Of a stretch of 64,000 nt of DNA, positions 2,406 to 57,578 are shown one piece after another. The notes under the pieces are model-generated. The model did not search any database. It worked only from the letters and a program-made list of their open reading frames with translations, and was not told the origin of the DNA. The position numbers and the translations under genes are program-made. Where the stretch lies: NCBI GenBank assembly GCA_903871875.1, contig CAIQIR010000107.1, positions 1 through 64,000 on the forward strand. Direction: 5' to 3'. Positions within the stretch are counted from its first letter, which is position 1. Each line of letters starts with the position of its first letter. Origin of the DNA: an uncultured Schlesneria sp. (GTDB lineage: Bacteria; Planctomycetota; Planctomycetia; Planctomycetales; Planctomycetaceae).

Positions 2406-2538
2406 CGACGGGGTGGAACGGTGACCAGAAAACATCGGACGTACGATGTCCGTCGGGGGATTGACTGTTTTCCGTACGGCGTCGATGTCACAATAACCAA
2501 GGATTGATGTTCCGCCTCTGTTTGCGAGGAGCGATGTG

Positions 2539-4005
2539 ATGATGCGGAGGACACTCGCCGGTTTGATGGTCTTGTTGGCAGCACCTGTGTTCGCCGACGA
2601 TTGGCCTCAGTTTCGGGGGCCCAATTGCTCGGGCTATTCGCCGACCACAGCAAAACTTCCCATCACGTTTTCCAATACGGAAAACGTCAAGTGGTCCGCG
2701 ACGCTCGGTGATGGCATCGGCTGTCCGGTGATTGCCGACGGTCGTGTGTTTACCTCGACGATGATCGACGATCAGACAGTGGGACTGGTTGCCTTCGATG
2801 CCGCGTCGGGCGAGAAACTCTGGACGCGGTCTTGGCCGATCGGCGACGCGGACGAAATCCATAGCACCAACAGTCATGCCGGAACCACCCCTGCCGCCGA
2901 TGCGGAACGGGTCTACTTCTATTTCAGCACGCTGGGCATGGTCGGTCTCGATGCCAAAACAGGCGTCGATGTTTGGCAGCAACCGTTGCCAGTCCCCTAT
3001 TTCATTTTTAAATGGGGCGCGGGCATGTCGCCCGTGCTTTACAAAGACCTGGTACTGTTCTGCCAGGACGATGATCTGCACCCGGCCCTGTATGCCTTCG
3101 ACAAACGCACGGGCAAGATTCGTTGGAAGGACGACCGCAATGACATGGCGGTCAATTATTCCCACCCCGTGATTTGCGAGACCCCCACGGGCGATGAGAT
3201 TGTCGTTGCCGGAACAGGTTTATTGATTGGCTACGATCCGGCGACCGGTCAGCGGTTGTGGTACGCCCGCACGCTGCTGCGGAACATCAAGACGACTCCC
3301 GTCAGTCACAAAGGCATCGTCTATGTGTCGCTACAAAGTAAAGGCATCGCCAGTCAGTGGCTGGCCTCAATCGACCGAGCCGACACCGGCAACAGCGACG
3401 ACAAAGTCACCAAGGACGAGGTGCAAAAATTCTTCGGCAAGCGTCCCGTGCCCGATGCCTTTTACGCGAAAACGTTCGACCGCGGCGATCTGAATCAGGA
3501 CGGTGTGCTCGAAGGACGCGAACTGGATATTGCGTTTTTGCCCCCGGGCAACGAGGCCGGCGCGGCGTACGATGCCAAGGTAGCGGAGGACGAATTCATT
3601 CTGGCGGTGAAGGGCGGGGGGCGGGGCGATGTCACGAAGACCCATGTCTTATGGAAGCATCCTACCAAACATACCGACCACATCGTCTCGCCCCTGATCG
3701 TCAACGATCACATGCTGCTGATCAAATCGGGTGGCATCGCGACCTGCTTTGAAGCGACCGCCGGTAAACCGCTGTTCGGTCCGGCCCGGATCAGTAACGC
3801 CGGTGATTATTTTGCTTCGCCCGTGTACGGAGATGGAAAGATCTATATCGCTGGCGAGAACGGCAATATCGTCGTCCTGCGTGACGCGCCCCAATTGGAT
3901 GTTTTGGCGGTGAACGATATGGGCGAATCGATTCTCGGCACACCCGCGATCGCCGATGGGGCCTTGTTTATTCGCACCCGAAAATCGCTGCTGAGGATTC
4001 AGTAA
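2539..4005 (+). CDS. Exported PQQ-type beta-propeller protein with EF-hand motifs
   Basis: About 488 residues. GTG 2536, ATG 2539 and ATG 2542 are consecutive; ATG 2539 is preferred because GAGGAG ends about 7 bases upstream. A Sec signal peptide (MMRR, hydrophobic core, cleavage near VFA-DD) precedes WPQFRGPN, the usual opening of planctomycete PQQ-like (BamB-like) propellers. Several PQQ-repeat blades follow, of the pattern V-x-A-x-D-x-x-T/S-G-x-x-x-W. Inside the propeller, about residues 285-330, are two acidic loops of EF-hand type (DRADTGNSDDKVT and LNQDGVLEGRELD), so a calcium-binding insertion is likely. The substrate is unknown. It may be transcribed alone; the next start is 63 bases away. 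Confidence 0.87.
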   Translation: MMRRTLAGLMVLLAAPVFADDWPQFRGPNCSGYSPTTAKLPITFSNTENVKWSATLGDGIGCPVIADGRVFTSTMIDDQTVGLVAFDAASGEKLWTRSWPIGDADEIHSTNSHAGTTPAADAERVYFYFSTLGMVGLDAKTGVDVWQQPLPVPYFIFKWGAGMSPVLYKDLVLFCQDDDLHPALYAFDKRTGKIRWKDDRNDMAVNYSHPVICETPTGDEIVVAGTGLLIGYDPATGQRLWYARTLLRNIKTTPVSHKGIVYVSLQSKGIASQWLASIDRADTGNSDDKVTKDEVQKFFGKRPVPDAFYAKTFDRGDLNQDGVLEGRELDIAFLPPGNEAGAAYDAKVAEDEFILAVKGGGRGDVTKTHVLWKHPTKHTDHIVSPLIVNDHMLLIKSGGIATCFEATAGKPLFGPARISNAGDYFASPVYGDGKIYIAGENGNIVVLRDAPQLDVLAVNDMGESILGTPAIADGALFIRTRKSLLRIQ

Positions 4006-4068: not shown

Positions 4069-4848
4069 ATGAGAAAAAGCAAGACGCTCGCTCGTATTCG
4101 CCAGAACCAAATGGTCCGGATGTGTGCCCTGGGCCACTTCATGCCGTTCTTCATCAAGCATGCGGCTCATTTCGGGTTCGACTGTATCTGGCTCGATCTG
4201 GAACATCGCAACTTCTCGGATCGCGAAGTCCAGACACTATTGGCTCATTCGCATCTGCACGACATCGACATCATGGTGCGACCGGCGACGATCGAGAAAA
4301 CGCGACTCTACCGCTACCTGGAGGATGGCGCGACCGGACTCATGATCCCCCACGTCAGCACACCCGAGAAAGCCCAAATGCTGGCCGATGCGGTTAAGTT
4401 TCCTCCGCTGGGCGATCGCGGCCTGGACGGTGCGGGTCTCGATGCCGATTACTATCTCGGCGATGGCGACTCTTTTGTGCAGGAAGCGAACGAAGAAACG
4501 TTTCTGGTCGTACAGATCGAAACGCCACTGGCCGTACAAAACGTCGATGCGATCGCCGCCATCCCCGGAGTGGATGGGCTGTTTGTCGGACCGGGCGACC
4601 TGGGTCTCAGGCTAAAGCACGAGACGGGCGGCATGACGCTGGAGAGTGCCTTTGAACGCGTCGCCGAAAGTTGCCGACGGCATAAGAAGGCTTGGGGCAC
4701 GCCCGTGGGCACGCCGGAGATCATGAAGAAACGACAGCAGCAAGGTGGACAATTGCTCAATCACGGCGGCGATTTTGGCGCCGTGATGAATATGCTGAAA
4801 GAGTCGGCCGCGGTCTTCGAACAAAACGAACGAGGATCGGTGAAATGA
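4069..4848 (+). CDS. HpcH/HpaI-family aldolase
   Basis: 259 residues, the normal size for class II 2-oxo-4-hydroxy-acid aldolases (HpaI, GarL). The family cleaves or forms a 2-oxo-acid C-C bond with pyruvate as one product and binds a divalent metal. Visible signatures are the WLDLEH segment (residues 41-46, with the catalytic-type histidine), QIETP (metal-ligand Glu) and VGPGDLG (metal-ligand Asp). AGGAACG lies about 9 bases before the ATG. The stop overlaps the next start as ATGA (4845-4848), so translation is probably coupled. It is the first gene of a five-gene operon. Whether the true substrate is a sugar-acid or an amino-acid-derived keto acid cannot be told. Confidence 0.87.
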   Translation: MRKSKTLARIRQNQMVRMCALGHFMPFFIKHAAHFGFDCIWLDLEHRNFSDREVQTLLAHSHLHDIDIMVRPATIEKTRLYRYLEDGATGLMIPHVSTPEKAQMLADAVKFPPLGDRGLDGAGLDADYYLGDGDSFVQEANEETFLVVQIETPLAVQNVDAIAAIPGVDGLFVGPGDLGLRLKHETGGMTLESAFERVAESCRRHKKAWGTPVGTPEIMKKRQQQGGQLLNHGGDFGAVMNMLKESAAVFEQNERGSVK

Positions 4849-5642
4849 CTCTGGCTGGCAAGTGGGCGTTGATTACGGGGGCAGGTCGAGGCATCGGAAA
4901 AGGCTGCGCCATGCAACTGGCGCGGCAGGGAGCCGATGTCGTCATCAATGATCGTCCAGGCAGCTTAGACCTGCAGACGACGTCCGACGAAATTCGAGCA
5001 CTGGGCCGAACGTGCCACGCGATCGAAGCGGACGTCTTTGCGCGGGCCGGTTGCGAACAACTGGTGCAGCAAGTCTTGGAACGAACCGCTCGCATCGACA
5101 TTCTGATCAGTAACCCCGCCTACAGCCGCCGCGGTGCGTTTCTCGACTACCCGCCCGAACAGTTCGAGCGAACCATTAACGGCACACTGACCAGCGGTTT
5201 TCATATGAGTCAACTGGTCGGCCGTCACATGGTCGCTCGCGGTGGCGGCGGAAAGATCGTCTTCATTTCCAGCGTTCAGGCCGAAATGCCGATCAGCCTG
5301 TGCGCCCCGTATGGCGCAGCGAAAGCCGGGCTGAATCATCTGATGAGATCGATCGCGGTCGAACTGGCACCATACCGCATCAATGTGAATGCGATCGAAC
5401 CAGGCTGGATTGATACTCCTGGCGAACATGTGTCGTTCTCGGACGAAACCATTGCCAACGAGGGGAAGCAGCTACCCTGGGGACGCTTGGGGCTACCGGA
5501 AGAGATTGGTAACGTTGCGGCGTTTCTTGTCTCGGACCAGGCCGACTACATCACCGGGACGGTGTTGCCTGTCGACGGCTGTTTTCGCTTCAAGGATTGC
5601 GGGGCCGAAAAGATCATTACTCCTGCAGGCACGCCGCAATGA
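4845..5642 (+). CDS. Short-chain dehydrogenase/reductase (operon copy 1)
   Basis: 265 residues from ATG 4845, which overlaps the aldolase stop; a longer in-frame extension upstream would lie within the aldolase gene. Classical SDR: nucleotide-binding TGAGRGIG at residues 11-18, NAY-type replaced by SNPAYS near 89-94, catalytic Ser 142/143, Tyr156 and Lys160 (YGAAK), and the C-terminal YITGTVLPVDGC segment. It probably oxidises or reduces a hydroxyl/keto group with NAD(P). The stop overlaps the next start (ATGA, 5639-5642). Confidence 0.9.
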   Translation: MTLAGKWALITGAGRGIGKGCAMQLARQGADVVINDRPGSLDLQTTSDEIRALGRTCHAIEADVFARAGCEQLVQQVLERTARIDILISNPAYSRRGAFLDYPPEQFERTINGTLTSGFHMSQLVGRHMVARGGGGKIVFISSVQAEMPISLCAPYGAAKAGLNHLMRSIAVELAPYRINVNAIEPGWIDTPGEHVSFSDETIANEGKQLPWGRLGLPEEIGNVAAFLVSDQADYITGTVLPVDGCFRFKDCGAEKIITPAGTPQ

Positions 5643-6556
5643 CAGCCCCCTTCCACACGTTTGAATTTGGCGACGCGGCGGCTCGCCCGCACCTGCTGAT
5701 CACAGGTGGCGTGCACGGTGACGAATTTGAACCGGTCGCCGCCATTCGCCGCTTGCGAACCTTGTTCGAGACTCGCGCCGCGGCTATTGCGACATTTCGC
5801 GGACGGATCACACTGATTCCTGTGGTCAATGAAGCGGCGTTTGTGCGGGGACATCGCTGTGCCGACGATGGCCTCGATCTGGCTCGAACATGCCCGGGCC
5901 GGCCACTAGGCAGCGTGACCGAACGAACGGCATGGGCGCTGAGCGAATTGATTCAACAGGCGGATGGCTACATCGATCTGCATACCGGCGGAACCGAACT
6001 GTGCGTCTACCCGCTGGCAGGATATATGTTGCATAAGAAGGCCGATGTCCTGGAAATGCAGCGGCGTATGGCGCGGGCCTTCAACCTGCCTGTGGTCTGG
6101 GGCACGTCGCCAGAATTGGAAGGCCGGTCGCTGTCCGTCGCACGCGACGCGAATGTCCCCGCGATCTATTGCGAGTACCTTGGTTCGGCCACCTGTGACC
6201 CGGCCGGTGTCGAGGCCTATGTCGAGGGCTGTCTGAATGTGATGAGTGTCTTCGGCATGCTGAATCGGGAACTTCCGGCCAGTTGCGTGGCACATTTCCT
6301 CGAAGATCCCGAACCCGATTCCGGTCATCTGCAGGTCTGTCATCCGTCACCGCTGACGGGCTATTTTGAAACCTGCGCGCAGCTCGGCCAATCGATTCGG
6401 CAGGGCGATCCGCTGGGCACCATCTTTCCATTGGACGGTGGCGCACCTGCCACCATCACATCGGCCCAGACCGGTATCGTGCTGGTGTTACGGACGTTTC
6501 CGCGGGTTCGTGCCGGGGAATCAGTGGGTGTCGTATTGGAGCTGCCGGAGTCATAG
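5639..6556 (+). CDS. Succinylglutamate desuccinylase/aspartoacylase-family zinc deacylase
   Basis: 305 residues starting at ATG 5639, coupled to the upstream SDR by a 4-base overlap. The zinc-binding signature GGVHGDEFEP gives His26 and Glu29, and the third ligand is His115 in YIDLHTGG. The family (AstE, aspartoacylase, DoeB) hydrolyses an N-acyl amino acid to the free amino acid and a carboxylate, or trims related amides. The usual NLNRxFPG segment is here DLARTCPG (residues 80-87), suggesting an altered substrate pocket. The C-terminal part (from about residue 235) has the beta-barrel-like end with the GTI and V-x-R-x-x-P elements of the DoeB-like branch. The natural acyl group is not evident. 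Confidence 0.84.
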   Translation: MTAPFHTFEFGDAAARPHLLITGGVHGDEFEPVAAIRRLRTLFETRAAAIATFRGRITLIPVVNEAAFVRGHRCADDGLDLARTCPGRPLGSVTERTAWALSELIQQADGYIDLHTGGTELCVYPLAGYMLHKKADVLEMQRRMARAFNLPVVWGTSPELEGRSLSVARDANVPAIYCEYLGSATCDPAGVEAYVEGCLNVMSVFGMLNRELPASCVAHFLEDPEPDSGHLQVCHPSPLTGYFETCAQLGQSIRQGDPLGTIFPLDGGAPATITSAQTGIVLVLRTFPRVRAGESVGVVLELPES

Positions 6557-6632
6557 GTCTCGGCAGCGACGTCTCGCGGTCGGTTGATGTAATTGGTCAA
6601 TTGTCGAAACAGAACGGAGGTCGCCTCGATTC

Positions 6633-7556
6633 ATGGAACACACGACACAGCAACGGCGGGTCTATCTCTCAGGCAAGATGGTTCCCGAATCCGAGGCGAA
6701 GATCTCGATTTTCGATAGTGCGGTCATGCTGGGCGACAGCTTGACCGAATCGACTCGCACGTTTCGTCACCAACCATTCCGACTAGACGATCATATCAAG
6801 CGGCTGTTTCGGTCATTGAAGGTCGCCCGCGTCGATCCTGGGCTTTCGCCCGTCGAACTCACGCGAGTGACGTTGGAGGTGCTCGATGCGAATCGGTCGT
6901 TCATGGGACCGGACGATGATTGCTGGATCGTGCACAACATCTCGCGCGGGTTGATGAAGCCGGGCCCTAGCGTGTCTCAGCAAAACTCGGCAACAATCAT
7001 GATCTTTACCAGTCCCATGGATCTGCGGGGTTGGGCTCGTTACTACACGGAAGGCTGCCACGCGGTGACATCGCTCAGCCGGGCCATCCCGGCACAGTCG
7101 CTCGATGCCCGAATCAAAAACCGCAGCCGCTTGTCTTATACGCTCGCTGATACTGAAGCCCGGTTGATCGATCCCGACGCTCAATGCATTTTGCTCGACA
7201 TTCATGGGAACGTGTCCGAGAACAAAGGCGGCAACGTCTTCGCGGTGATGGACGGCCAGCTACGAACACCGTCGACGGACAATTGCCTGGCGGGGATCAG
7301 CCGACAAACCGCGTTGGAATTGGCCGCGGAACTGCAGATCCCCGTGCGTGAAATGCCGCTGCAACCGTATGACCTCTATACGGCCGACGAGGTCTTCTTC
7401 ACGAGTACCCCTTACTGCATTATGCCGGCCACCAAATTCAATGGACTGCCCGTCGCTGACGGACAGGTGGGTTCGATCACCAAACAACTCTTGACCGCCT
7501 GGAGCCAACGAGTCGGCGTCGATATCGTCGCTCAGGCGCAGCGTCAGTTGGGCTAA
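6633..7556 (+). CDS. PLP class IV aminotransferase (BCAT / D-amino-acid transaminase-like)
   Basis: 307 residues. Fold-type IV signatures are present: SIFDSAVMLGDS near the N-terminus, the PLP lysine at Lys162 (ARIKNRSRL), the SENKGGNVF segment with Glu195, and TPSTDNCLAGISR, which closes the cofactor site. This group includes branched-chain aminotransferase, D-alanine transaminase and aminodeoxychorismate lyase; the lysine context and lack of a BCAT-typical C-terminus leave the substrate open. It starts 76 bases after the deacylase and is read in the same direction, so it probably belongs to the same operon. GGAGG is present about 12 bases upstream of the ATG, rather far for an optimal site. 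Confidence 0.85.
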   Translation: MEHTTQQRRVYLSGKMVPESEAKISIFDSAVMLGDSLTESTRTFRHQPFRLDDHIKRLFRSLKVARVDPGLSPVELTRVTLEVLDANRSFMGPDDDCWIVHNISRGLMKPGPSVSQQNSATIMIFTSPMDLRGWARYYTEGCHAVTSLSRAIPAQSLDARIKNRSRLSYTLADTEARLIDPDAQCILLDIHGNVSENKGGNVFAVMDGQLRTPSTDNCLAGISRQTALELAAELQIPVREMPLQPYDLYTADEVFFTSTPYCIMPATKFNGLPVADGQVGSITKQLLTAWSQRVGVDIVAQAQRQLG

Positions 7557-7600
7557 GTAACGATCACCACACCACCCAGCACTTTGCAGTGAAAACTACG

Positions 7601-8395
7601 ATGACAGAACCCACGATTCAAAAACTGTTCGATCTGACGGGTCGTGTGGCCTTGATCACGGGCGGCTCGGGACATCTCGGCCAGTCGCTTTCCAGGGCTC
7701 TGGCGGAAGCCGGTGCGAGCGTCGTGGTCGGCAGCCGGGACCAGGCCCGGGCTCAACGTGTGATCGAGGAATTGCCTTCACCGAGTGGGGTGAAGCATCA
7801 TGCGGTGGTTCTCGATCAGATGGAAGAAGCATCATTAAACGAGGGGTTTGATGCGGCAGTGACGGTGGCCGGCCAGGTGGACTTCTTGATCAATAATGGA
7901 CAACAGGGCCATGCTCTCGATCTGACAACAGTTACGGCCGAGGCCTTTAACAAAGATCTGCAAAACGCAACGGGCTATTTTCTGCTGGCTCGTCGGCTAC
8001 ACGATCATGTGGTGGCACGCGGCGTACCGGGTTCGATCGTAATGATCGGATCGATGTACGGCGTGGTCGGTTCGTACCCCGATGCGTACGAGGGAATCTG
8101 TGTGGCCAGTCCGGTTCAGTACCACACACTGAAAGGTGGAATCGTCCACATGACACGCCATCTGGCGGCTTATTGGGCCAGAGACCGGGTCCGCGTCAAC
8201 TGCCTCAGCCCTGGTCCATTTCCCTCAGAGAAGGCTCCACAAGCGATGGTCGAACGGCTCAGGACGAAAAGCCCGATGGGCCGCATGGGCGTGCCGCACG
8301 AACTGAAGGGACCGTTACTGATGCTGATCAGCGATGCCGGCAGCTATCTCACGGGCCAGAACCTGCTGGTGGATGGAGGCTGGACCGCCTGGTGA
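7601..8395 (+). CDS. Short-chain dehydrogenase/reductase (operon copy 2)
   Basis: 264 residues from ATG 7601; an in-frame GTG at 7589 would add four residues and neither has a clear ribosome-binding site. Rossmann motif TGGSGHLG at residues 20-27 (Leu replaces the usual Ile), NNGQ near 98-101, catalytic Ser151, Tyr174 and Lys178. Between Ser and Tyr the protein carries a longer loop (SYPDAYEGICVASPVQ) than most SDRs. Ends with LTGQNLLVDGGWTAW. Clearly different from the SDR at 4845, so it is not a recent duplicate. Last gene of the operon; it is followed by a hairpin shared with the convergent fabI. Confidence 0.88.
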   Translation: MTEPTIQKLFDLTGRVALITGGSGHLGQSLSRALAEAGASVVVGSRDQARAQRVIEELPSPSGVKHHAVVLDQMEEASLNEGFDAAVTVAGQVDFLINNGQQGHALDLTTVTAEAFNKDLQNATGYFLLARRLHDHVVARGVPGSIVMIGSMYGVVGSYPDAYEGICVASPVQYHTLKGGIVHMTRHLAAYWARDRVRVNCLSPGPFPSEKAPQAMVERLRTKSPMGRMGVPHELKGPLLMLISDAGSYLTGQNLLVDGGWTAW

Positions 8396-8465: not shown

Positions 8466-9272
8466 TTAGAACTTGGCGTCGGCCGGTGGTGCTCCCATGA
8501 CGTGGTAGCCGCTGTCGACGTGCAGGGTCTCGCCGGTGACTCCGCTCGACATATCGCTCAGCAGATACAGACCCGTTTTGCCGACCTCTTCCACGTCGAC
8601 GTTGCGGCGTAGCGGAGCCATCGCACCGTACATGCTGAGCATCGAATCGAAGTCTTTCACGGCCGACGAACTGAGCGTCTTGATGGGACCGGCACTGAGG
8701 GCGTTGACGCGAATTTTCTTTTGACCCAATTCATTGGCGAGGTATCCCACCGAAGATTCGAGCGCCGCTTTGCAAAGGCCCATCACGTTGTAACCGGGGA
8801 TAACGCGTTCGCCGCCCAGATAGGTCAGGGTGATGATGCTGCCGCCGTTGGGCATCAGCGCCTGGGCTCGTTTGCAGATCGCCATCAGGCTGAAGACACT
8901 GATGTCCATCGAGGTCTTGAAGCCTTCGCGGCTGCAACCGTAGACCGGGCCCTTGAGGTCTTCAAGCGGGGCGTAAGCCACTGAGTGGACCACGAAATCG
9001 AGTTCCCCAAAGGTCTCTTTGGCGACGGCAAATGTCCGGTCCAGATCTTCGTCTTTCTGGACATCGCACGAAACGACCATCTTCGCGCCGATCGGATCGA
9101 CCAGCTTGCGGACGCGACGCTCCATCTTGGGATTTGCAGGATCGCGATCGGGCAGATGTGTAAAACCGAGCGCTGCCCCTTCCTTGTGAAGCTGCTCGGT
9201 AATGGCCCAGGCGATCGAATAATCGTTGGCGATTCCGAACACGAGACCCCGTTTTCCAGCCATCAAACTCAT
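8466..9272 (-). CDS. fabI: Enoyl-[acyl-carrier-protein] reductase (NADH), FabI type
   Basis: 268 residues from ATG at 9272 (AAGGA about 7 bases upstream on the minus strand); an in-frame ATG at 9278 is too close to that site. Last reduction step of fatty-acid elongation, trans-2-enoyl-ACP to acyl-ACP, in the cytoplasm. FabI features: [19 protein letters not shown] (the Ala-Asn-Asp form of the nucleotide loop), SVAYAP, and the wide-spaced Tyr-x6-Lys pair in YNVMGLCK, which separates FabI from classical SDRs. The C-terminus has [19 protein letters not shown]. The 167 bases upstream are free for its own promoter. Confidence 0.93.
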
Positions 9273-9439
9273 CGTCATTTCCTTCTGCAGCCGACTGCGG
9301 ACCGTAGCGCGACTCCGTTGGCAGCCCCGGTATGGTCGACACTTGCCGGACCACGCCCACACGATAACACAGCCGAGAAAACCCGCAACCGTGACAGGGG
9401 AATCAGCCTCCCGCAATCACTCGTTGACGCGGAGGACGT

Positions 9440-10537
9440 CTACGGGGTGTAAGAAGGGCTGTCGTCGAAATAGACGTAATGCCGAATCGCAGAAGCGATC
9501 GCCGGCTGGGAATAGTAATGTGCCCAGATGTGTCCCACTCCCACCAGTCCCGTCACGCCGTAATCAATGATCTTCTGGTTCCATTCCCCCAGTTCCGCAC
9601 GATCACCACGGGTCACGCCTGTAATGGCCAAGGCCCCTGTCGAGACCGGTCGACGCAGTGGATAGAACAGCAACGGGAAATCGGCCCGATTACGCAGATT
9701 GATGACCGCCTCGGCACGGCACAGCGCCAGCCCATAGCGCTCGTTGGGATTCAGCCAATCATGATCGATCGCGGCCGCCGCCAGGACGACGCGAATCCGG
9801 CGAACGGGATGAGCCCCCGTAGCCAACTTCCGTCCTTCAATCGATCCGCCTGCCATGGCATGCAATGCCGACGCCACCATTCGCGTCCCGTGGCTATGGC
9901 CGATCAAACAGATCGGATGATCGACACTCACTTTGGCGACCAGGTCCGCCAGGTAAAACCCGTTAAGCGATGCGCGACGGCCCAGCTTGTTGACTTCGAT
10001 GTGGGGACAGATTCCCCCGTCGTCACTCGCCCAGGTATAGAAAATCAGATGGACCCGCTGACAAGGAGCCGCTTCCCGCAACCAGCGGTACGTATAAGCC
10101 GAATCGTTCAGCATCGAATCCCAGGTCACGAAACTGCCGTGCGCCATGAAACAGACCGGCACGCCAGGCTCAAGTGACCCCAGCAGTTCGTCAATGTTTG
10201 TCGCACGGCCGGGATTGGGCCCGTCGAATCGAAAGACCTCGTAGTTGTAGCCCAACCCACGCTCGACGGCGCAGCGCCCGCCCCGGGTACTGACGATCCA
10301 ATAGTCAGGGTCGCAGGGCCCTCGGACGATCGGCCCTGAACCCGTGGTCAGATTTTGGTACGGCAGCGATTCCACCGCGTCGGGTGACGGGGGGATCGCC
10401 TGTCCCTGAAAATACAGCCCATCGACGGTTTGTGCCTGCGCCACCCACGGTGTGAAGGTGAAACCCCACAGTGCAATCAACAGGACACGGCAATATCTCA
10501 ACGCCATCGTCGACCGAGGCGTAAAGCGCGTCGTCAT
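9440..10537 (-). CDS. Exported alpha/beta-hydrolase-like protein
   Basis: About 365 residues from the ATG at 10537; a TTG at 10555 would add six and ATG at 10507 would shorten it by ten. A signal peptide (core LLIALWGFTFTP, cleavage near AQA-QT) points to export. The nucleophile elbow is GHSHG (Ser215 in this numbering), preceded by a hydrophobic strand HPICLIG; an earlier CFMAHGSF segment resembles an oxyanion-hole strand. This suggests a lipase/esterase or DUF900-type hydrolase. Six or more cysteines in the exported part may form disulfides. No specific substrate can be assigned. It lies upstream of fabI on the same strand with a 167-base gap. Confidence 0.72.
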   Translation of the reverse strand: MTTRFTPRSTMALRYCRVLLIALWGFTFTPWVAQAQTVDGLYFQGQAIPPSPDAVESLPYQNLTTGSGPIVRGPCDPDYWIVSTRGGRCAVERGLGYNYEVFRFDGPNPGRATNIDELLGSLEPGVPVCFMAHGSFVTWDSMLNDSAYTYRWLREAAPCQRVHLIFYTWASDDGGICPHIEVNKLGRRASLNGFYLADLVAKVSVDHPICLIGHSHGTRMVASALHAMAGGSIEGRKLATGAHPVRRIRVVLAAAAIDHDWLNPNERYGLALCRAEAVINLRNRADFPLLFYPLRRPVSTGALAITGVTRGDRAELGEWNQKIIDYGVTGLVGVGHIWAHYYSQPAIASAIRHYVYFDDSPSYTP

Positions 10538-10718
10538 GGAAACCAACAGCCCCAAAATGACCAGTTAACCTGTGGACTCGGCGTTGGTTATCGACGCGAA
10601 TGGCCGCAGACCCCGAGTAGAAACGGAACGCTTTGGGCGTCCTCTCGGAATGCTGACCTGTTGCGGAACATAGACTTTGTTGGATTGGCGTTTTCGTCAA
10701 AGTCGACCCAAAGACGAC

Positions 10719-10754
10719 AAACAGCCTCGCGTGAAAAGTCACCCGAGGCTGTTT
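10719..10754 (-). terminator. Hairpin terminator downstream of the OmpH-like gene
   Basis: Perfect 11-base inverted repeat AAACAGCCTCG (10719-10729) / CGAGGCTGTTT (10744-10754). On the minus strand the second arm ends in TGTTTGTCG, a short T-rich tail. It lies about 100 bases past the stop of the gene at 10856, and could also act on plus-strand transcripts. Confidence 0.6.
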
Positions 10755-10855
10755 GAAAATCATCAGACCGTTCGCTCCTGGGGCAATTTCCGCCGCAGGA
10801 AAGGATCGGGAAGGGGACTCGTCCGTGGGACTTCGACCTGGTAAGCAGTCGAATC

Positions 10856-11542
10856 TCAGCGGACCGATTCTTGTTCGTCAGCATCGACGTTGCGGGCGGC
10901 CGATTTGGCCGATGAACGCTTGGCAGTCGATTTCGTCGGGGTTACCGCGGGTTCGGGCTTAGCGGCGGTCTCGACCTTTTGTGGGGCCGCCATCGTCACG
11001 GGATGCTTTTCCCGCAGCACTTTAATGACGTCATCGGTAATGTCGACACCCGAATCAACCGACAGCAGCAGGCCTTCGTTCTTTGGAATGACGATGCTCA
11101 GACCTCGCTTGGCAGCAACTTCTTGAGCGATTGGCTTGAGATCAGCGCGGAACTTGGCAATTTGCTTTTGCTTGAATTGCTCGTATTCAGCCCGTGCCTG
11201 GTTCTGAATTTGTGTCAATTTCGTCGCGGCGTTGTTCGCCATGTCCGTGTATTCTTTTTTCTCTTCTGGCGTCAGTTCGTCGCCATATTCCTTCTTCTTT
11301 GCGCTCAACTGTTCGTTGGCATTTTCCACAATCTTCTTCAAAGATTGGTTAAGCGAATTCTGTTCGAGCTCCAAAGACTGAGCCAAAATCCGATCGCGAC
11401 CTGTTTCGGCGGCCACTTTGTCGAGATCGACAACCGCCATTCCTCCACGTGCCGTCGGCGCAGACAACCCACTGATCTGGCCACAGCCGGTCAAAGCCGC
11501 CGCTGTTGCCGTGAAAACAAAAACCATCCCTAAGTGACGCAT
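10856..11542 (-). CDS. OmpH/Skp-family protein with a lipoprotein signal
   Basis: 228 residues from ATG 11542, which has AAGGAG 6 bases upstream on the minus strand. Skp-type chaperones hold unfolded outer-membrane proteins in the periplasm. The OmpH start VVDLDKVAAETGR is followed by a long charged coiled coil (about residues 50-125, rich in Lys/Glu/Gln) and the C-terminal beta element LSIVIPKNEGLLLSVDSGVDITDDVI that is typical of the family. Unlike ordinary Skp, the signal peptide ends in LTGC (Cys20), a lipobox, so the protein is probably membrane anchored. A Pro/Ala/Lys-rich tail (about 50 residues) follows the conserved domain. It is divergent from the gene at 11896. Confidence 0.86.
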   Translation of the reverse strand: MRHLGMVFVFTATAAALTGCGQISGLSAPTARGGMAVVDLDKVAAETGRDRILAQSLELEQNSLNQSLKKIVENANEQLSAKKKEYGDELTPEEKKEYTDMANNAATKLTQIQNQARAEYEQFKQKQIAKFRADLKPIAQEVAAKRGLSIVIPKNEGLLLSVDSGVDITDDVIKVLREKHPVTMAAPQKVETAAKPEPAVTPTKSTAKRSSAKSAARNVDADEQESVR

Positions 11543-26730: not shown

Positions 26731-27897
26731 ATGACTCACGATACGCTGAAACAGATTGAACAAAAGGTTTACGCCGGCGAACGAATCACTTTCGACGAGG
26801 GTCTGTACCTCGACGAACAAGCGGATCTCCTCACGCTGGGACGGCTGGCGAATCACGTTCGCGAGCGAAAGAACGGCAACTTCGCTTACTACAACACGAA
26901 CGTTCATCTGAACCCCACCAATGTCTGCGTGTATCGATGTCGATTCTGCGCTTTTCGTGCCGATTTGAAGGCCGAAAAGGCCTATGTCTTCAGCGACGAC
27001 ATGTTGCGAGAACGGGTCCTCGAAGCGCGATCCAATGGGGCGACCGAGATTCATGTCGTCGGCGGCCTGCACCATCAAAAAAAATTTGACTGGTACCTGA
27101 ACATCGTTCGCGTGCTGCACGAAACCTGCCCGGAAATTCATATCAAGGCCTGGACGGCCGTCGAAATTGGCTGGTTCAGTTTTATTACGAAACAATCGAT
27201 TGAATGGGTTCTGAAAGAAATGGTCGATGCCGGCTTAGGCAGCATGCCGGGCGGCGGGGCCGAAATCTTCCATCCCGATGTTCGCGATCAGCTGTGCGAA
27301 CACAAAGCCGACGCGAAAAACTGGATCACGATCCATCGTGCGGCTCATCAACACGGCCTGCGATCCAATGCGACCATGCTTTATGGGCATATTGAACAGG
27401 CCCAGCACCGAATTGACCATCTTTGTCAACTACGAGCCCTGCAGGACGAAACCGGGGGATTTCAAACATTTATTCCGCTGGCTTTTCACCCCGAAAACAC
27501 GGGACTGGACCAGATCGTCAAGCCGACCGGAGCGATGGACCTGCGGATGATCGCCTTGTCGCGAATCATGCTCGACAATTTTGACCACATCAAAGCCTAT
27601 TGGATCATGCTGGGCGAGCAGATCGCTCAAGTGGCGTTGGGCTTCGGCGCGGATGACATCGACGGAACCGTTGTTCACGAAATTATTTATCACGATGCCG
27701 GTGCCAAGACACCTGAAGGACTAAGCGTCGAGCACTTGCATCGTCTGATTCGCGAATCGGGCCGTGAACCGGTTGAACGAGACACGCTCTATCGCCGTGT
27801 GATCCGCGATGGAGCCCGTTGGACCGTCGGCGAACCGTTGATGTCCGGATCAACATCGACGAGACACGGTGAATTGCCGAAATCAGTGCCCGTCTGA
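26731..27897 (+). CDS. mqnE: Aminofutalosine synthase (futalosine menaquinone pathway)
   Basis: 388 residues from ATG 26731; a TTG at 26713 would add six. Radical SAM enzyme joining 3-(1-carboxyvinyloxy)benzoate to the adenosyl radical to give aminofutalosine, the second step of menaquinone synthesis by the futalosine route. The cluster motif is Cys66-x3-Cys70-x2-Cys73 (CVYRCRFC). The segments GLGSMPGGGAEIF, HPENTGLDQIVKPTG and LDNFDHIKAYWIMLG separate MqnE from CofH and MqnC. It stands alone here; no other mqn gene is in the window. Ends with a short Ser/Thr-rich tail. Confidence 0.92.
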   Translation: MTHDTLKQIEQKVYAGERITFDEGLYLDEQADLLTLGRLANHVRERKNGNFAYYNTNVHLNPTNVCVYRCRFCAFRADLKAEKAYVFSDDMLRERVLEARSNGATEIHVVGGLHHQKKFDWYLNIVRVLHETCPEIHIKAWTAVEIGWFSFITKQSIEWVLKEMVDAGLGSMPGGGAEIFHPDVRDQLCEHKADAKNWITIHRAAHQHGLRSNATMLYGHIEQAQHRIDHLCQLRALQDETGGFQTFIPLAFHPENTGLDQIVKPTGAMDLRMIALSRIMLDNFDHIKAYWIMLGEQIAQVALGFGADDIDGTVVHEIIYHDAGAKTPEGLSVEHLHRLIRESGREPVERDTLYRRVIRDGARWTVGEPLMSGSTSTRHGELPKSVPV

Positions 27898-40145: not shown

Positions 40146-41216
40146 ATGGAATGCACGCTGGCTGCGGACCGCTGGAATGACCTTGCCGCTCGGGTTCTGT
40201 CGGGACATGAAATCACCGCCGACGAGGGGCTGCAGATTCTCCAGTCTGACGATGATGAACTGCTGGAATTGCTCGCGGCCACTTATCGCGTACGTCGGCA
40301 GCATTTCGGGAAAAAAGTCCATCTTTACTTCCTGAAGAACGCCAAAAGTGGCCTTTGCCCGGAAGATTGCGGTTACTGTTCCCAGTCGATTGTTTCCGAA
40401 GCGGAAATCCCTCGATACGCCCTGCTAAATGAAGCAAAGTTGATGGAGGGCGCGGAACGAGCGGTGGCGTCGCAGGCTCGAACCTATTGCATCGTAACTT
40501 CGGGTCGGGGCCCCACCAATCGCGAGGTGGAACATATCGCCAATACGGTGACCAAGATCAAAGACAAATATGGATTGCATATTTGCTGTTGCCTGGGCCT
40601 GCTTCAACCAGAACAAGCGGAGACACTTAAGGCGGCAGGCGTTGATCGAATTAATCACAACCTGAACACCAGCCGGTCCTTCCACGACTCGATCTGCTCG
40701 ACACATACTTATGATGACCGATTGAAAACCCTGCAGGCCGTGCGCAACGCCGGAATGGAACTGTGCAGCGGTTTGATCGTGGGGATGGGGGAAACCGACC
40801 GCGATTTGGTCGATGTCGCATTCGAACTGCGAACACTTGGAGTTCATTCGACGCCGGTGAATTTTCTGCATTCGATCGATGGTACACCACTCGAACGAAA
40901 ATGGGATTTGAATCCCCGCTATTGCTTGAAAACCCTGTGTATGTTCCGGCTGGCAAATCCAACAGTCGAACTGCGAGTGTCCGGAGGACGCGAAGTCAAT
41001 TTACGATCGATGCAAGCGATGAGTCTGTATGCAGCGAATTCGATGTTTGTGAGCGACTATCTCACGACCAAGGGTCAGGCTGCCGAAGATGATTTTAAAA
41101 TGGTGGAAGATCTGGGTTTTGAAATCGTGATCGGCGATCACGAGGCGTACCAAGCCTGGAAGTCTACGCAGGCGGAAACATCCGTTCAGGCACAGCCGGT
41201 GACCTGTCACGGCTAG
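40146..41216 (+). CDS. bioB: Biotin synthase
   Basis: 356 residues from ATG 40146, with GAAGGAC about 8 bases upstream; TTG codons at 40140 and 40143 are less likely. Radical SAM enzyme inserting sulfur into dethiobiotin. The [4Fe-4S] motif is Cys71-x3-Cys75-x2-Cys78 (CPEDCGYCSQ). Other family segments: ICCCLGLLQPEQAETLKAAGVDRINHNLNT, GLIVGMGET and NFLHSIDGTPLE (each a known BioB element), and the C-terminal SGGREVNLRSMQ with the Arg that binds the [2Fe-2S] cluster. No other bio gene in the window. Confidence 0.95.
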   Translation: MECTLAADRWNDLAARVLSGHEITADEGLQILQSDDDELLELLAATYRVRRQHFGKKVHLYFLKNAKSGLCPEDCGYCSQSIVSEAEIPRYALLNEAKLMEGAERAVASQARTYCIVTSGRGPTNREVEHIANTVTKIKDKYGLHICCCLGLLQPEQAETLKAAGVDRINHNLNTSRSFHDSICSTHTYDDRLKTLQAVRNAGMELCSGLIVGMGETDRDLVDVAFELRTLGVHSTPVNFLHSIDGTPLERKWDLNPRYCLKTLCMFRLANPTVELRVSGGREVNLRSMQAMSLYAANSMFVSDYLTTKGQAAEDDFKMVEDLGFEIVIGDHEAYQAWKSTQAETSVQAQPVTCHG

Positions 41217-53321: not shown

Positions 53322-56300
53322 ATGACGTCCGCAACCAATCCCGGCAACTATGTCGATTTTGACGAGTATGTCGGCCTAAAGCTGGAAAAGACCCGTTCGA
53401 CGATTCGAACCACGGATCTGCTAACGGCGGCAGCGGGTGTCGCGGCCTTGTTTCTTGGCTATTTGTTGATTTTTGTCGTGCTGGATCAATGGGCGGTCCG
53501 CGGCGGATTCGGCGTTTTTTGGCGGTGGATCCTGCTGTCCGGCCTCTTGATTTCCAACATCGCCTGGTTGGTCTGGAAGATGGGCATTCCCGCCTTTCGG
53601 ACGGTCAATGGTTTATTTGCCGCACAGGAAATTGAGAAAGCCCAGCCTGAATTAAAAAGCAACCTGCTAAATCTGGTTGATTTGAAAGCGGCCGGGCGTC
53701 CTGTGAATCCCGTCATCATGAAAGCGTTGGAACGGCAGGCAGCCATACGGCTGCAACAAGTTGATGTCTCGCAAGCCATCGATCACCGTCCGCTGGTTCG
53801 AACTGCGTATGTGCTCCTCGCGATCATCGTCGTGTTCTGTTTTTACGCGATGCTGTCGCCCAAAAAGATTTCGAATTCCATTTGGCGAGGCCTGTTACCG
53901 GCAGCAGAAGTTCCGCTGGCAACGATCACCGAAATTCTTGACGTGAAACCGGGCGATCTCACCGTGCCCGCACATCAACCCTCCGTAGAAGTGCAAGTTG
54001 ATCTGGCCGGAGAGATTCCCGCAAAAGTCTTGCTGATCTACTCGACAACCGACGGCCAACGCGACCAAACAATCGAATTACACTCAGAGCAAGAAGGGCA
54101 GCCTCGATTTCGAGGGCAATTGATCGGCGAAAGCGGTCAGGGACTGGTCCAGGAACTGACCTACTTCATTCAAGCCGGAGATGCTTCATCGCGGCCATAC
54201 AAAATCCATGTCGAACAACCACCGTCCGCAGATATTGAAAGCGTTCACATCGAGTTTCCCGGTTATATGAAACTTCCGCCAGTTGAACAGGCCCACAACG
54301 GCGCAGTGGACGCCTGGGAAGGAGCCAAGGTTCTGATCAACGCCAAAGCCAATATGCCGATTCGTTCCGCAATGATTCAATTTATGGACGACCCCCAGGT
54401 CGGCCCTACAGGCGAAGAAGTGCTGATGTCCGTCACCGGCAGCGGACGTCAGCTGCAAGCGACGTGGACATTGACGTTACGCGCCGATGGAACGTTTCCA
54501 AAATACTACCGAATTCATTGTCGGACTGAGGACGGCCGGGTCACTACCGGACATGTGATTAACCCGTTAACAATCAGGCCAGATTTGCCTCCGGAAGTCG
54601 TGTTATTACACCCCGATCGCGATATTGACGCGCCAGCTAACGCCACAATCCCCCTGCTGATTCAGACCCGTGATCCCGATTTTGAAATGGGATATGTCTA
54701 CCTGAATATTGAAAAATCGGGGCAAAAGATCCTCCGTGATCAACTTTCTGAGGGCCGGCAATCAAAGCTAGTACTCAAGCATGAACTCGCGTTAGCAAGA
54801 CTTAACCCTGCAGTGGGTGACACGATCGAGCTTTGGATCGAGGCTTATGACAACAAGCAGCCGCGTCCGAATTCAAAAAACACTCCGAAAATCAAGATTC
54901 GCATTGTGCCACCGGTTTCGCCAAAAGAGGCTGAACAACAGTTAGCCGACCAAAAAGAACGGCGTGATCAAAAAGTCGCCGAAGCCGACCCCGATACGAA
55001 TTCGGATCAGCCGGATGCCGCTCCGTCAAAAGATGAAGGACCGCAGGATCACGGGAAGCCAAACGACGCTCGCCCCCCAGAACCCAATCCCCCGGAACAG
55101 CCACCACAGCAAAACCCCCAAGACAACAAGGCTCAAGAAGGTCAGCAGGGCCAACAGGGGCAGAACAAGCAAGCAGGTTCGGGAAAGAAGAGTCAGAGTG
55201 GAGAAGCACAACAGGGAGCGGGCCAGCCCAAGGAGACAAAGGACGGCGGTTCTGGAAAGGCGAAAGAAGACAACGATTCATCGAAGGGACCGTCGAGTCA
55301 AAACGGGAAATCCCGTAAGCCTCTGAACAACGACGGTTCGCAGGATGATGAAGTGATTCGTCAGATCAGTGAACGACTGAACAAGGACAAATCATCAAAC
55401 CCGCAGCAGCCAAACAACCAGTCGCAATCGGATGAGCCGGAAACAAAACCCGCTGCTGATCAGAAAACCGACGGGAAAAAAGCCGAACAGCCATCTTCGG
55501 AGGGCGGATCACAAACCGAGAAAGACAAGAACGGCCAGGATCCGAATTCAAAATCGTCGAAGAAATCAGAGAGTAAGGACAAATCAGAAGGACAGGACAG
55601 TCATCCGAACGAGTCTGGCGAGAACCGGCCAAAAGATTCACAACGACAAGATGATGCTGGCTCTGAGCCGAATCCGTCGGCCGAAAAGGCCGACAAGCCG
55701 AATGACAAGGGGCTAAAGGCAGGCGATTCGAAAACGGAACCCACATCGTCCGAAGACCAGTCGAAAAACGGTTCCCAGGATTCGACCGACTCGAAAGGCG
55801 CTGATAAACAGGCCGGAAAACCGGAACAAAAGCCCGAGCCAAACAAGCAGGGCGGTCAGGTCGACAAGTCCAACGATCAGGGCGACAAGTCGGACGCTTC
55901 TAAAACAAAGTCGGATCCCAAAGAGGCCCCGCCGAAGAACGCCGCTCAGGAGACGACCCCGCAGGACTTGAGCAAGGAAGAAAAGAGCAACGGGAAAAAA
56001 GGGGAGAAGCCGGAAGCAAAATCGGACCAACAAGAACAGAATCAATCGGGGTCAAAATCCGACAGCGAAGACGCAAAAATGCCGGAGACCAACGATGACG
56101 AGAAGAATTCAAAGGGGAACAGGGGCTCAAAGTCGAAACCCAACCCTCAAAGTCCGGATGATGCCGCAAAATCCAAGGAGGGTTCCTCGGATCAAGCGTC
56201 GCAAGATAAGGGCGTGAAGGAACAAGTTCCCGATTCACCCGATTCAAAAAAGGGGAAACCCGACGGGACAGAGCAGGGAACGGCCAAGCCGGATCGTGAT

Positions 56301-57578
56301 CCTAACTCAAAGCCCACGAAATCCAAGAACGAAAAAGTCAAACGAGACCCGAACGAGAAGCCGGAAACTCGTCCTCAGCAAGATCCGACTGATTCATCGA
56401 ACGAACAAAACGACGGTGCATCGAAATCACCTTCCGGAAAGAATTCACCGGACGACAGTCAACCGTCCAAGTCGGGTGATAAGTCAGCAAAAACGCCAGG
56501 AGAAAAAGCGGACGGTTCGCAGTCTGACCAAAACGAACCCGCGAAAGACAAACCCGAAGGCCAGAAACAGGGATCCGCAGACGACAAGCAGAAACCGGGA
56601 TCAGAAAAAAGTTCGAACGATCCACAAGGTAGACCGTCCGACATTCAGAAGTCTCAAACGAAAGACGGGAAGCCGAGTACGGACGGACAAAACGAGGACA
56701 AAAAGAAGCCGGATTCGGCCAAAGATTCCCAACCTGGCGATCAAGACGAGAAACCCCAGTCTGAAGAGTCGGAGCAGGGGAAAAAATCCGCGGAGCCAAA
56801 CAAACCTGAGACCACTCCCACCAAAGGTGATCAAGCCGGCGGTGATAAGAATAAACCAGGTAACGACTCCTCTAAAGGAAAGAAATCCGATCAACGCGGA
56901 AAGAAGCCAGATTCAGGTAAGTCTGACTCAGGCAAATCCGAGTCGGGTAAATCTGATTCAGGTAAATCCGAAAAGAGCCAATCCGGCCAAGGCGACTCGG
57001 ACAAGGGTGACGGTAAAGAGGGAAGCCAGGGAGAGGGAAAGAAGCCGGGTGGAAAGTCGTCGAAAACAGGTTCTCAAAATAACCCCGCCGGAACCGGCAG
57101 CACGAGTGGTGATAGCGACGGAGAAACTGGCAATTCGGGTGATGCATCAGAGACGCTCAAGGGGGATGATCCAAATCTTGAATATAACCGTCAGGCGACC
57201 GAGTTGATTTTGCAGAAGTTGAAAAAGGATCTGGACCGCGGTGACGTCGATCCAGAACTTCTTGAACAACTCGGCTGGACCCAGACTGAAATGAAACAGT
57301 TTGCCGATCGGCTTTCTAAATCACTACGCGAATCCAAGCATCCTGAGGACTCGACAGAATCTAAGGCCCGCCAGCAGCAGTTTCAGGAAATGCTGAAGAA
57401 CCTGGACCTGCAAAGTGCGGGAACTCAACGAGCGGGCGAGAAGGAACCCAAACGGGACCTCAATCAAGTGGAGTCCAAGCGAACGCCGCCCCCACCGGCG
57501 TATCGATCAGCCTTCGAAAAATACACGCGCGACCTCAATCGCCAGAAACCGGCTGCAGGCAATAAATCTGCCAAATGA
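53322..57578 (+). CDS. Giant membrane protein with about 750-residue low-complexity region (DUF4175-like)
   Basis: 1418 residues. Three membrane helices (about 34-56, 67-85 and 160-180), then a beta-rich exported part (about 200-530) with KPGDLTVPAHQPSVEVQVDLAG and Ig-like strands, which resembles the planctomycete proteins related to DUF4175. Residues about 540-1285 are low complexity, made almost only of Lys, Ser, Asp, Glu, Gln, Pro, Gly and Asn, with short repeats such as SGKSD; probably disordered. Residues about 1285-1418 return to a helical composition (LILQKLKKDLDRGDVDPELLEQLGW ...). Its low-complexity DNA makes other frames look open; those are shadows. Function unknown; perhaps an envelope spacer. 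No homologous operon partners adjacent. Confidence 0.85.
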   Translation: MTSATNPGNYVDFDEYVGLKLEKTRSTIRTTDLLTAAAGVAALFLGYLLIFVVLDQWAVRGGFGVFWRWILLSGLLISNIAWLVWKMGIPAFRTVNGLFAAQEIEKAQPELKSNLLNLVDLKAAGRPVNPVIMKALERQAAIRLQQVDVSQAIDHRPLVRTAYVLLAIIVVFCFYAMLSPKKISNSIWRGLLPAAEVPLATITEILDVKPGDLTVPAHQPSVEVQVDLAGEIPAKVLLIYSTTDGQRDQTIELHSEQEGQPRFRGQLIGESGQGLVQELTYFIQAGDASSRPYKIHVEQPPSADIESVHIEFPGYMKLPPVEQAHNGAVDAWEGAKVLINAKANMPIRSAMIQFMDDPQVGPTGEEVLMSVTGSGRQLQATWTLTLRADGTFPKYYRIHCRTEDGRVTTGHVINPLTIRPDLPPEVVLLHPDRDIDAPANATIPLLIQTRDPDFEMGYVYLNIEKSGQKILRDQLSEGRQSKLVLKHELALARLNPAVGDTIELWIEAYDNKQPRPNSKNTPKIKIRIVPPVSPKEAEQQLADQKERRDQKVAEADPDTNSDQPDAAPSKDEGPQDHGKPNDARPPEPNPPEQPPQQNPQDNKAQEGQQGQQGQNKQAGSGKKSQSGEAQQGAGQPKETKDGGSGKAKEDNDSSKGPSSQNGKSRKPLNNDGSQDDEVIRQISERLNKDKSSNPQQPNNQSQSDEPETKPAADQKTDGKKAEQPSSEGGSQTEKDKNGQDPNSKSSKKSESKDKSEGQDSHPNESGENRPKDSQRQDDAGSEPNPSAEKADKPNDKGLKAGDSKTEPTSSEDQSKNGSQDSTDSKGADKQAGKPEQKPEPNKQGGQVDKSNDQGDKSDASKTKSDPKEAPPKNAAQETTPQDLSKEEKSNGKKGEKPEAKSDQQEQNQSGSKSDSEDAKMPETNDDEKNSKGNRGSKSKPNPQSPDDAAKSKEGSSDQASQDKGVKEQVPDSPDSKKGKPDGTEQGTAKPDRDPNSKPTKSKNEKVKRDPNEKPETRPQQDPTDSSNEQNDGASKSPSGKNSPDDSQPSKSGDKSAKTPGEKADGSQSDQNEPAKDKPEGQKQGSADDKQKPGSEKSSNDPQGRPSDIQKSQTKDGKPSTDGQNEDKKKPDSAKDSQPGDQDEKPQSEESEQGKKSAEPNKPETTPTKGDQAGGDKNKPGNDSSKGKKSDQRGKKPDSGKSDSGKSESGKSDSGKSEKSQSGQGDSDKGDGKEGSQGEGKKPGGKSSKTGSQNNPAGTGSTSGDSDGETGNSGDASETLKGDDPNLEYNRQATELILQKLKKDLDRGDVDPELLEQLGWTQTEMKQFADRLSKSLRESKHPEDSTESKARQQQFQEMLKNLDLQSAGTQRAGEKEPKRDLNQVESKRTPPPPAYRSAFEKYTRDLNRQKPAAGNKSAK
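56910..56969 (+). repeat. 15-base tandem repeat inside the low-complexity region
   Basis: Four units of 15 bases (56910-56924, 56925-56939, 56940-56954, 56955-56969), each coding Asp/Glu-Ser-Gly-Lys-Ser. The units differ mainly at third codon positions, which suggests age or selection on the protein rather than recent slippage. Confidence 0.85.

Follow-up and report, generated by a model that had tools for sequence, protein, structure and literature searches.

A five-gene cluster in an uncultured Schlesneria is a local assembly of a probable catabolic module found in Planctomycetota and Verrucomicrobiota

Oxidative chitin degradation in Pseudoalteromonas prydzensis runs through the Ong pathway (PMC9537276, PMC12017989), in which a sodium:solute symporter (SSS), a deacetylase and a pyridoxal phosphate (PLP)-dependent deaminase lead to 2-keto-3-deoxygluconate (KDG) (PMC9537276). 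Two further papers place an SSS ectoine importer in Planctomycetota (PMC13342039) and describe the planctomycete strain SKZ5.1 as carrying more than 80 sialidase genes and no NanA (PMC11929135). Here we analyze a run of five genes at positions 4069-8395 of a 64,000-nucleotide stretch of DNA (hereafter the window; contig CAIQIR010000107.1, C107 in our numbering) from the 7.6 Mb genome of an uncultured Schlesneria sp. (GCA_903871875.1, hereafter G000). Our comparison of gene families, neighbourhoods and co-occurrence identifies these genes as a local version of a module that is shared by Planctomycetota and Verrucomicrobiota and that probably serves to break down a nitrogen-containing nutrient, for example an acetylated amino-sugar acid. 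The five genes are:

4069-4848, plus strand: ALD, an HpcH/HpaI-type class II pyruvate aldolase (Pfam PF03328, HpcH_HpaI, 89.9 bits)
4845-5642, plus strand: SDR1, a short-chain dehydrogenase (SDR; Pfam adh_short_C2, motifs TGAGRGIG and YGAAK)
5639-6556, plus strand: DEAC, a zinc amidohydrolase of the AstE/AspA/DoeB fold (Pfam AstE_AspA_cat, 79.1 bits)
6633-7556, plus strand: AT4, a class IV aminotransferase, i.e. a PLP enzyme of fold IV (Pfam Aminotran_4, PF01063, 139.1 bits)
7601-8395 (alternative GTG start at 7589), plus strand: SDR2, a second SDR (Pfam adh_short_C2)

The run was originally noticed in a sequence-only reading, and its layout holds: the genes share one strand, with ATGA overlaps between ALD and SDR1 (4845-4848) and between SDR1 and DEAC (5639-5642), a gap of 76 bases between DEAC and AT4, and one of 44 bases between AT4 and SDR2 if the latter begins at ATG 7601 (32 bases from GTG 7589); the 264-aa orthologues of SDR2 match the ATG start. 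The five enzyme families named in that reading are also confirmed, as the Pfam matches of all five proteins exceed the curated cut-offs (the two SDRs score 201.1 and 123.6 bits). The five genes occur together in the same seven of 15 genomes of the genus (G000, G002, G003, G006, G007, G009 and G010) and are contiguous in G003, G007 and G010, so the outcome that the reading itself had named as fatal, a gene order conserved in no related genome, is not what we found. In G002 and G006 ALD-SDR1-DEAC-AT4 are contiguous and SDR2 lies nearby on the opposite strand, while in G009 the genes are spread over five contigs; G014 contains two SDR1 fragments and none of the other four genes. The order in other genomes of the genus is unchanged at protein identities of 66-86%, which argues that it reflects more than chance. 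None of the eight terminator-like sites detected between 2300 and 8700 (shuffled sequences gave 5.6 +- 2.6) falls into the gaps between the five genes, and a scan of the same interval detected no sigma-70-like promoter. The cluster is conserved and probably co-transcribed.

A broader survey of 59 relatives included two accompanying families, an SSS symporter and a Gfo/Idh oxidoreductase. Presence was scored at cut-offs of 1e-70 for DEAC, 1e-74 for ALD (with a contig-cut gene in G024), 1e-75 for SDR1 (where no score gap is visible among the matches listed, and where G014 represents two fragments), 1e-80 for SDR2, 1e-130 for AT4, 1e-90 for the symporter and 1e-65 for Gfo/Idh; divergent ALD copies (37-40% identity) beside module genes in G015, G040 and G054 thereby count as absent. 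DEAC was found in 23 genomes, ALD in 21, SDR1 and SDR2 in 22 each, AT4 in 9, the symporter in 21 and Gfo/Idh in 16, and the symporter and Gfo/Idh are confined to the 27 genomes with at least one of DEAC, ALD, SDR1 and SDR2. When these six families (all but AT4) are tallied, 32 genomes have none, two have one, two have three, five have four, 11 have five and seven have all six, i.e. 18 genomes have five or six. Counting by genus (41 genera; both/first only/second only/neither) gives 13/2/2/24 for ALD-SDR1 (p 5e-7), 14/3/2/22 for both DEAC-SDR2 and DEAC-symporter (p 2e-6 each) and 13/4/2/22 for DEAC-SDR1. The tests weaken within the family (23 genera), where DEAC-ALD gives p 0.077, DEAC-SDR1 0.0066 and SDR1-SDR2 0.00016, and no pair involving AT4 reaches significance. 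DEAC and ALD do not lie within 5 kb of each other in 10 of the 18 genomes that possess both, hence linkage alone does not explain the co-occurrence. In a phylum-wide draw of 236 genomes DEAC was found in nine, ALD in six and SDR1 in four, and all four SDR1-positive genomes hold all three genes; SDR1 was scored here on no more than 11 candidates per genome, which makes its absences soft. The five genes belong to a set that relatives tend to retain or lose jointly. One could argue that genes for several related compounds merely drift together in large genomes and form no single linear pathway, and the fluid gene order and recombining sub-pairs described below are in keeping with this; however, the co-occurrence persists across contig dispersal and genus-level counting, and we consider such a loose association unlikely.

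The neighbourhoods of DEAC extend the module to a second phylum. In a scan across named genomes, DEAC had 243 related matches; we retained the best 80, including 19 under verrucomicrobial names, and some of the 80 coincide with contigs of the relatives surveyed above. Gene callers dropped SDR1 or DEAC at several loci, the window included, so the neighbour counts based on clustering (DEAC called at 74 of 80 loci) are lower bounds; a recount by homology covers DEAC at all 80. Within 6 kb of DEAC the recount gives SDR1 (at least 45% identity) at 47 loci, ALD at 29, a PQQ-type beta-propeller gene at 13, SDR2 at 10 and AT4 at five, the corresponding numbers for the 19 verrucomicrobial loci being 14 for SDR1, nine for ALD and zero for both AT4 and the beta-propeller. 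The deacylase-SDR1-aldolase neighbourhood therefore exists also in Verrucomicrobiota, with the slot of AT4 taken by a threonine-synthase-like PLP gene (PALP), which directly follows DEAC at 21 of 74 loci, including 13 of 16 verrucomicrobial ones (AT4 is next at five of 74). The order symporter-ALD-SDR1-DEAC-PALP is found both in the planctomycete G029 (locus L155), where the beta-propeller gene comes first and the symporter lies between it and ALD, and in the verrucomicrobium L186, where an opposite-strand open reading frame (ORF) follows the symporter. Elsewhere, SDR2 is paired with the Gfo/Idh gene in many relatives, and the sub-pairs ALD-SDR1, SDR1-DEAC, SDR2-Gfo/Idh and symporter-AT4 recombine. 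The functional module is thus present in two phyla, Planctomycetota and Verrucomicrobiota.

Several individual loci deserve mention. In G040 (C10, ~2640-2662 kb; loci L110, L129 and L227) a run of about 20 genes contains nearly all partner families and two regulators, and offers the most clues to the substrate: on one strand it encodes GDSL, HEAT, PALP, SDR, DEAC, symporter, DHDPS, BNR, DUF1559, GntR/FCD, BNR, M19, 3HCDH, Amidohydro_2, D-Ser-dehydratase-like, SDR2, Gfo/Idh and ALD-like proteins and a GntR-LacI-type regulator. In G057 (C2:374059-376420, L123) second copies of DEAC and PALP are interrupted by stop codons or split over several frames and represent a decaying duplicate. Locus L137, titled Candidatus Kuenenia stuttgartiensis, contains a Planctomycetaceae beta-propeller-ALD-SDR1-DEAC cluster with DEAC at 63% identity; the title is probably wrong.

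DEAC is the best-defined member of the set. Its sequence and its model (predicted local distance difference test, pLDDT, 91.8) agree on the DoeB/aspartoacylase fold, with DoeB (6twm) as the best solved match and DoeB, aspartoacylase and CphZ as the fold relatives in the structure search. Residues H26, E29 and H115, presumably zinc ligands by homology, and E179, which we take to be the catalytic Glu on the same grounds, are kept in all 94 aligned rows (82 distinct sequences). The same rows all have Ala82 in place of the Asn of the DLNR or (D/N)(L/I)NR motif, which is present at the equivalent position in the alignments with 6twm and 3cdx and in the two readable of seven DEAC paralogues (L025 and L028). 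By sequence, DEAC forms a clade of its own, marked by Ala82 in contrast to the Asn of DoeB-like proteins. The fold brings to mind catabolism of compatible solutes of the ectoine/hydroxyectoine type by a DoeB/EutE deacylase, an EutB-like PLP enzyme and an M24 hydrolase, and PALP and M24 genes do occur near DEAC at some loci (M24 no more than five genes away in six of 74), and Planctomycetota have the SSS ectoine importer cited above. Nevertheless, DEAC scores 84.5 bits against the DoeB/EutE equivalog TIGR02994 (cut-off 402.7), the Asn is replaced throughout, the aldolase and SDRs would have no role, and the window cluster has no M24 gene; we regard this explanation as very improbable.

ALD belongs to the HpcH/HpaI family, well above the gathering score of 25 for PF03328. 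All 12 aligned orthologues share its R71, E151 and D177, and at least 90% have H46; we take these residues to be the known HpaI catalytic set. Against the HpaI 4-hydroxy-2-oxoheptanedioate aldolase model TIGR02311 ALD scores 106.1 bits (cut-off 368.8), and it also matches the GarL and YfaU sugar-acid aldolase models below their cut-offs. The best NCBIfam models are glucose and L-rhamnose 1-dehydrogenases for SDR1 and gluconate 5-dehydrogenase for SDR2, and the resulting hint at a sugar is weak because all these scores lie below cut-off and SDR families are promiscuous. SDR1 had no match in the PDB at 1e-40, no looser search having been made. Paralogues of AT4 (39%) and ALD (35%) lie about 1.2 kb apart elsewhere in the host genome (G000:C68, L220:8022-9047 and ~10207-11200), with a similar spacing in G007:C20.

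AT4 is a class IV enzyme by PF01063 (gathering score 28.5), its PLP lysine, K162, being invariant in 10 of 10 sequences, and it scores 159.4 bits against the IlvE model TIGR01122 (cut-off 245.55); the pLDDT of its model is 76.5. A close orthologue was found in only three of 41 genera; in G015 and G020 it adjoins a symporter. Class IV aminotransferases that are more distant (36-43%) lie beside module genes in G022 (symporter on C579, SDR2 on C730), in G023 (Gfo/Idh and DEAC on C61) and in G034, where C443 carries both Gfo/Idh and SDR2. PALP has lost SVNPxRxEGQKT, a motif of threonine synthases, and reads GGGG instead of GNAGN, as in serine/threonine ammonia-lyases; with that motif lost, we rejected a role as housekeeping threonine synthase. 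The wider group related to OngC, encoded by genes with Ala_racemase_N and D-ser_dehydrat domains, is also represented in the vicinity of the module in G002, G006, G040 and G054 (loci including L092, L227 and L230). Since AT4, the distant class IV enzymes and PALP share the slot or the neighbourhood, a PLP enzyme at the nitrogen step appears to be recurrent and its type variable. The generic chemistry suggested by the sequence-only reading, N-deacylation followed by nitrogen removal and a pyruvate-type aldol cleavage, fits the predicted enzymes, and is supported by the kept catalytic residues and by the PLP enzyme that follows DEAC in many genomes.

As that reading has it, this chemistry could serve a non-sugar N-acyl amino acid with a 4-hydroxyl, such as a hydroxylated glutamate or a small peptide. 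After DEAC, AT4 would yield a 4-hydroxy-2-oxo acid, ALD would release pyruvate and an aldehyde, and an SDR would reduce or oxidise the latter. Such a route requires the five genes alone; the fold relatives of DEAC have acyl amino acids or dipeptides as substrates, the distant aminotransferases in G022, G034 and G023 would suit it, and M19, M24, M81 and RraA genes lie near DEAC or PALP at some loci. It leaves unexplained two or three sugar-type oxidoreductases, the SiaT-like symporter and the ammonia-lyase in the slot of AT4, and we consider it somewhat unlikely.

The claim that the cluster contains no transporter or regulator is true for 4069-8395, but relatives carry a symporter in or beside the cluster, and as this symporter co-occurs with the module (all 21 genomes lie within the 27 with core genes) its absence here is local. 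Among solved structures 5nv9 comes closest (2.6e-49), with SMVT, SMCT1 and vSGLT behind it; we take 5nv9, listed in the match table as a putative sodium:solute symporter, to be SiaT. The symporter matches form two subgroups, of 61-73% and 42-50% identity. On C17 of the host genome (L130:7825-10370) a homologue (44%) is divergent from an adjoining ALD paralogue (35-37%), with PhyH- and Amidohydro_2-type genes near.

A SiaT-like importer evokes catabolism of nonulosonic (sialic-like) acids, in which ALD would act first and give pyruvate and an N-acyl hexosamine, SDR1 would oxidise C1, DEAC would deacylate the resulting acid and a PLP enzyme would remove the nitrogen. BNR_2 (sialidase-like) genes indeed lie beside SDR2 or DEAC at several loci, and the DHDPS protein of the G040 cluster, accompanied by a GntR/FCD regulator and two BNR genes, has N-acetylneuraminate lyase as its best NCBIfam model (107.5 bits, cut-off 281). 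If DHDPS replaced ALD, it should occur in genomes with DEAC and no ALD; it is present in two of 59 genomes (G040 and G057) and in one of five such genomes, so this prediction failed, and G040 also holds a divergent ALD. The BNR proteins of our family f11 have Asp boxes, and a scan found no [FYW]R[IVL]P motif in them. We know of no HpaI enzyme that cleaves sialic acids, and we judge this route distinctly unlikely. As separate observations, a BNR_2-type gene with five Asp boxes in L107 (8430-9599) stops at the base that precedes DEAC (9600), which lies on the same strand, and related BNR genes follow SDR2 in G003, G007 and G018.

We favour, with a probability of about 0.4, a non-phosphorylating route that degrades an N-acylated amino-sugar acid and follows a logic like that of the Ong pathway with other enzyme families. 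The SiaT-like sodium symporter would import an N-acylated 2-amino-2-deoxy sugar or the corresponding aldonic acid; sugar oxidation or epimerisation would fall to SDR1 and SDR2, together with Gfo/Idh in genomes that have it; DEAC would take the N-acyl group off the acyl-amino acid moiety; the PLP enzyme (AT4 here, the threonine-synthase-like ammonia-lyase elsewhere) would remove the nitrogen to give a 2-oxo acid; and ALD would split a 2-oxo-4-hydroxy acid into an aldehyde and a three-carbon 2-oxo acid, either pyruvate or hydroxypyruvate. The scheme would parallel the oxidation of chitin via N-acetylglucosaminate (GlcNAc1A); its deacetylase and deaminase would belong to families unrelated to those of Ong, and an aldolase would replace KDG kinase.

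A number of observations speak against this amino-sugar acid scheme. The symporter of the host genome is only 44% identical and lies on another contig (C17), G007 has no symporter match reaching 1e-90, and Gfo/Idh was not found at 1e-65 in G000, G003, G007 and G010. PALP is not specific to the module, because every one of the 15 genomes of the genus has it, whether DEAC is there or not. With AT4 the product retains a 3-hydroxyl, which makes it a less usual HpaI substrate, and enzymes of the AspA family are best known on L-amino acids, whereas glucosaminate is D-like. The scheme gives no role to the peptidase-family genes (M19, M24, M81) of some clusters. The genomes share ancestry, so the p values overstate the evidence, and the phylum draw contains five DEAC-positive genomes without ALD or SDR1 and two ALD-positive ones (G193 and G248) without SDR1 or DEAC.

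Whatever the substrate, a concrete seven-gene functional module replaces five separate annotations. If the scheme is true, it would give functions to three clades annotated at the hypothetical level (the Ala82 clade of DEAC, ALD and SDR1) and a testable candidate for the use by planctomycetes of sugars released by their many exo-glycosidases. A wider version, an undescribed non-phosphorylating route in both phyla for acetylated amino-sugar or nonulosonic acids, with the Ala82 clade as a new sugar-acid deacetylase of the AstE/DoeB fold, interchangeable PLP enzymes for nitrogen removal and an HpaI aldolase, is speculative and in our opinion rather unlikely; it could explain planctomycetes with many sialidases and no NanA, as described for SKZ5.1 (PMC11929135).

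The conserved block starts one gene earlier than originally described, and the run of five ends at a gene on the other strand:

2536-4005, plus strand: a PQQ-type beta-propeller protein with BamB-like repeats (Pfam PQQ_2, 98.8 bits), probably exported
8466-9278, opposite strand: a FabI-like gene that closes the five-gene run

The beta-propeller gene ends 63 bases upstream of ALD, and its orthologues lie immediately 5' of ALD or SDR1 in L091-L094, L097 and L099. The five-gene set stands as a conserved cluster, but it is incomplete, as the beta-propeller and Gfo/Idh genes also accompany it. Elsewhere in the window, a 1418-codon ORF (53322-57578) is located in a region with an AT skew of 0.37 and short tandem repeats of 15-18 bases, and the proteins encoded at 26731-27897 and 40146-41216 look, from their sequences, like the radical-SAM pair of menaquinone (futalosine) biosynthesis.

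The sequence-only reading knew of no described pathway with this enzyme set, and our searches of the open-access literature, subscription journals not being covered, likewise brought up none that we recognised. ALD shares PF03328 and the conserved active-site residues with the HpaI, GarL and YfaU pyruvate aldolases, but scores far under each equivalog cut-off; AT4 shares PF01063 and the PLP lysine with branched-chain and D-amino-acid aminotransferases (fold IV), but stays under all equivalog cut-offs and has a KNRSR motif after the lysine. DEAC shares the fold, the Zn-site residues and the catalytic Glu with DoeB/EutE (6twm, N-acetyl-diaminobutyrate deacetylase), but is only 25-28% identical, lacks the N-terminal extension and has the Asn to Ala change in DLNR, and no ectoine genes are present in the window. 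With the nan pathway the module shares the SiaT-like symporter and the BNR genes of some relatives, but the G040 DHDPS query (1e-30) found no NanA-like gene in G000 (E. coli-type NanA was not used as a query, and NanE and NanK were not searched). The proposed scheme has in common with the Ong pathway an SSS symporter, an N-deacetylase in the cytoplasm, a PLP deaminase, a 2-keto acid as the product and first steps that are non-phosphorylated. No SSS symporter is present in the window cluster, and Pfam detects no fold III OngC-type deaminase within 4069-8395; DEAC does not match the OngB-type (amidohydrolase-fold) GlcNAc1A deacetylase, for which the rest of the genome was not searched. OngB is a D-aminoacylase barrel, whereas DEAC has the AstE/DoeB fold; OngC belongs to fold III, whereas AT4 belongs to fold IV and the alternative PALP to fold II; and the Ong route ends with KDG kinase, whereas here an HpaI aldolase is found and the SDRs are additional. 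If the substrate is an amino-sugar acid, the module would represent a second, independently assembled non-phosphorylated route, in two glycan-degrading phyla.

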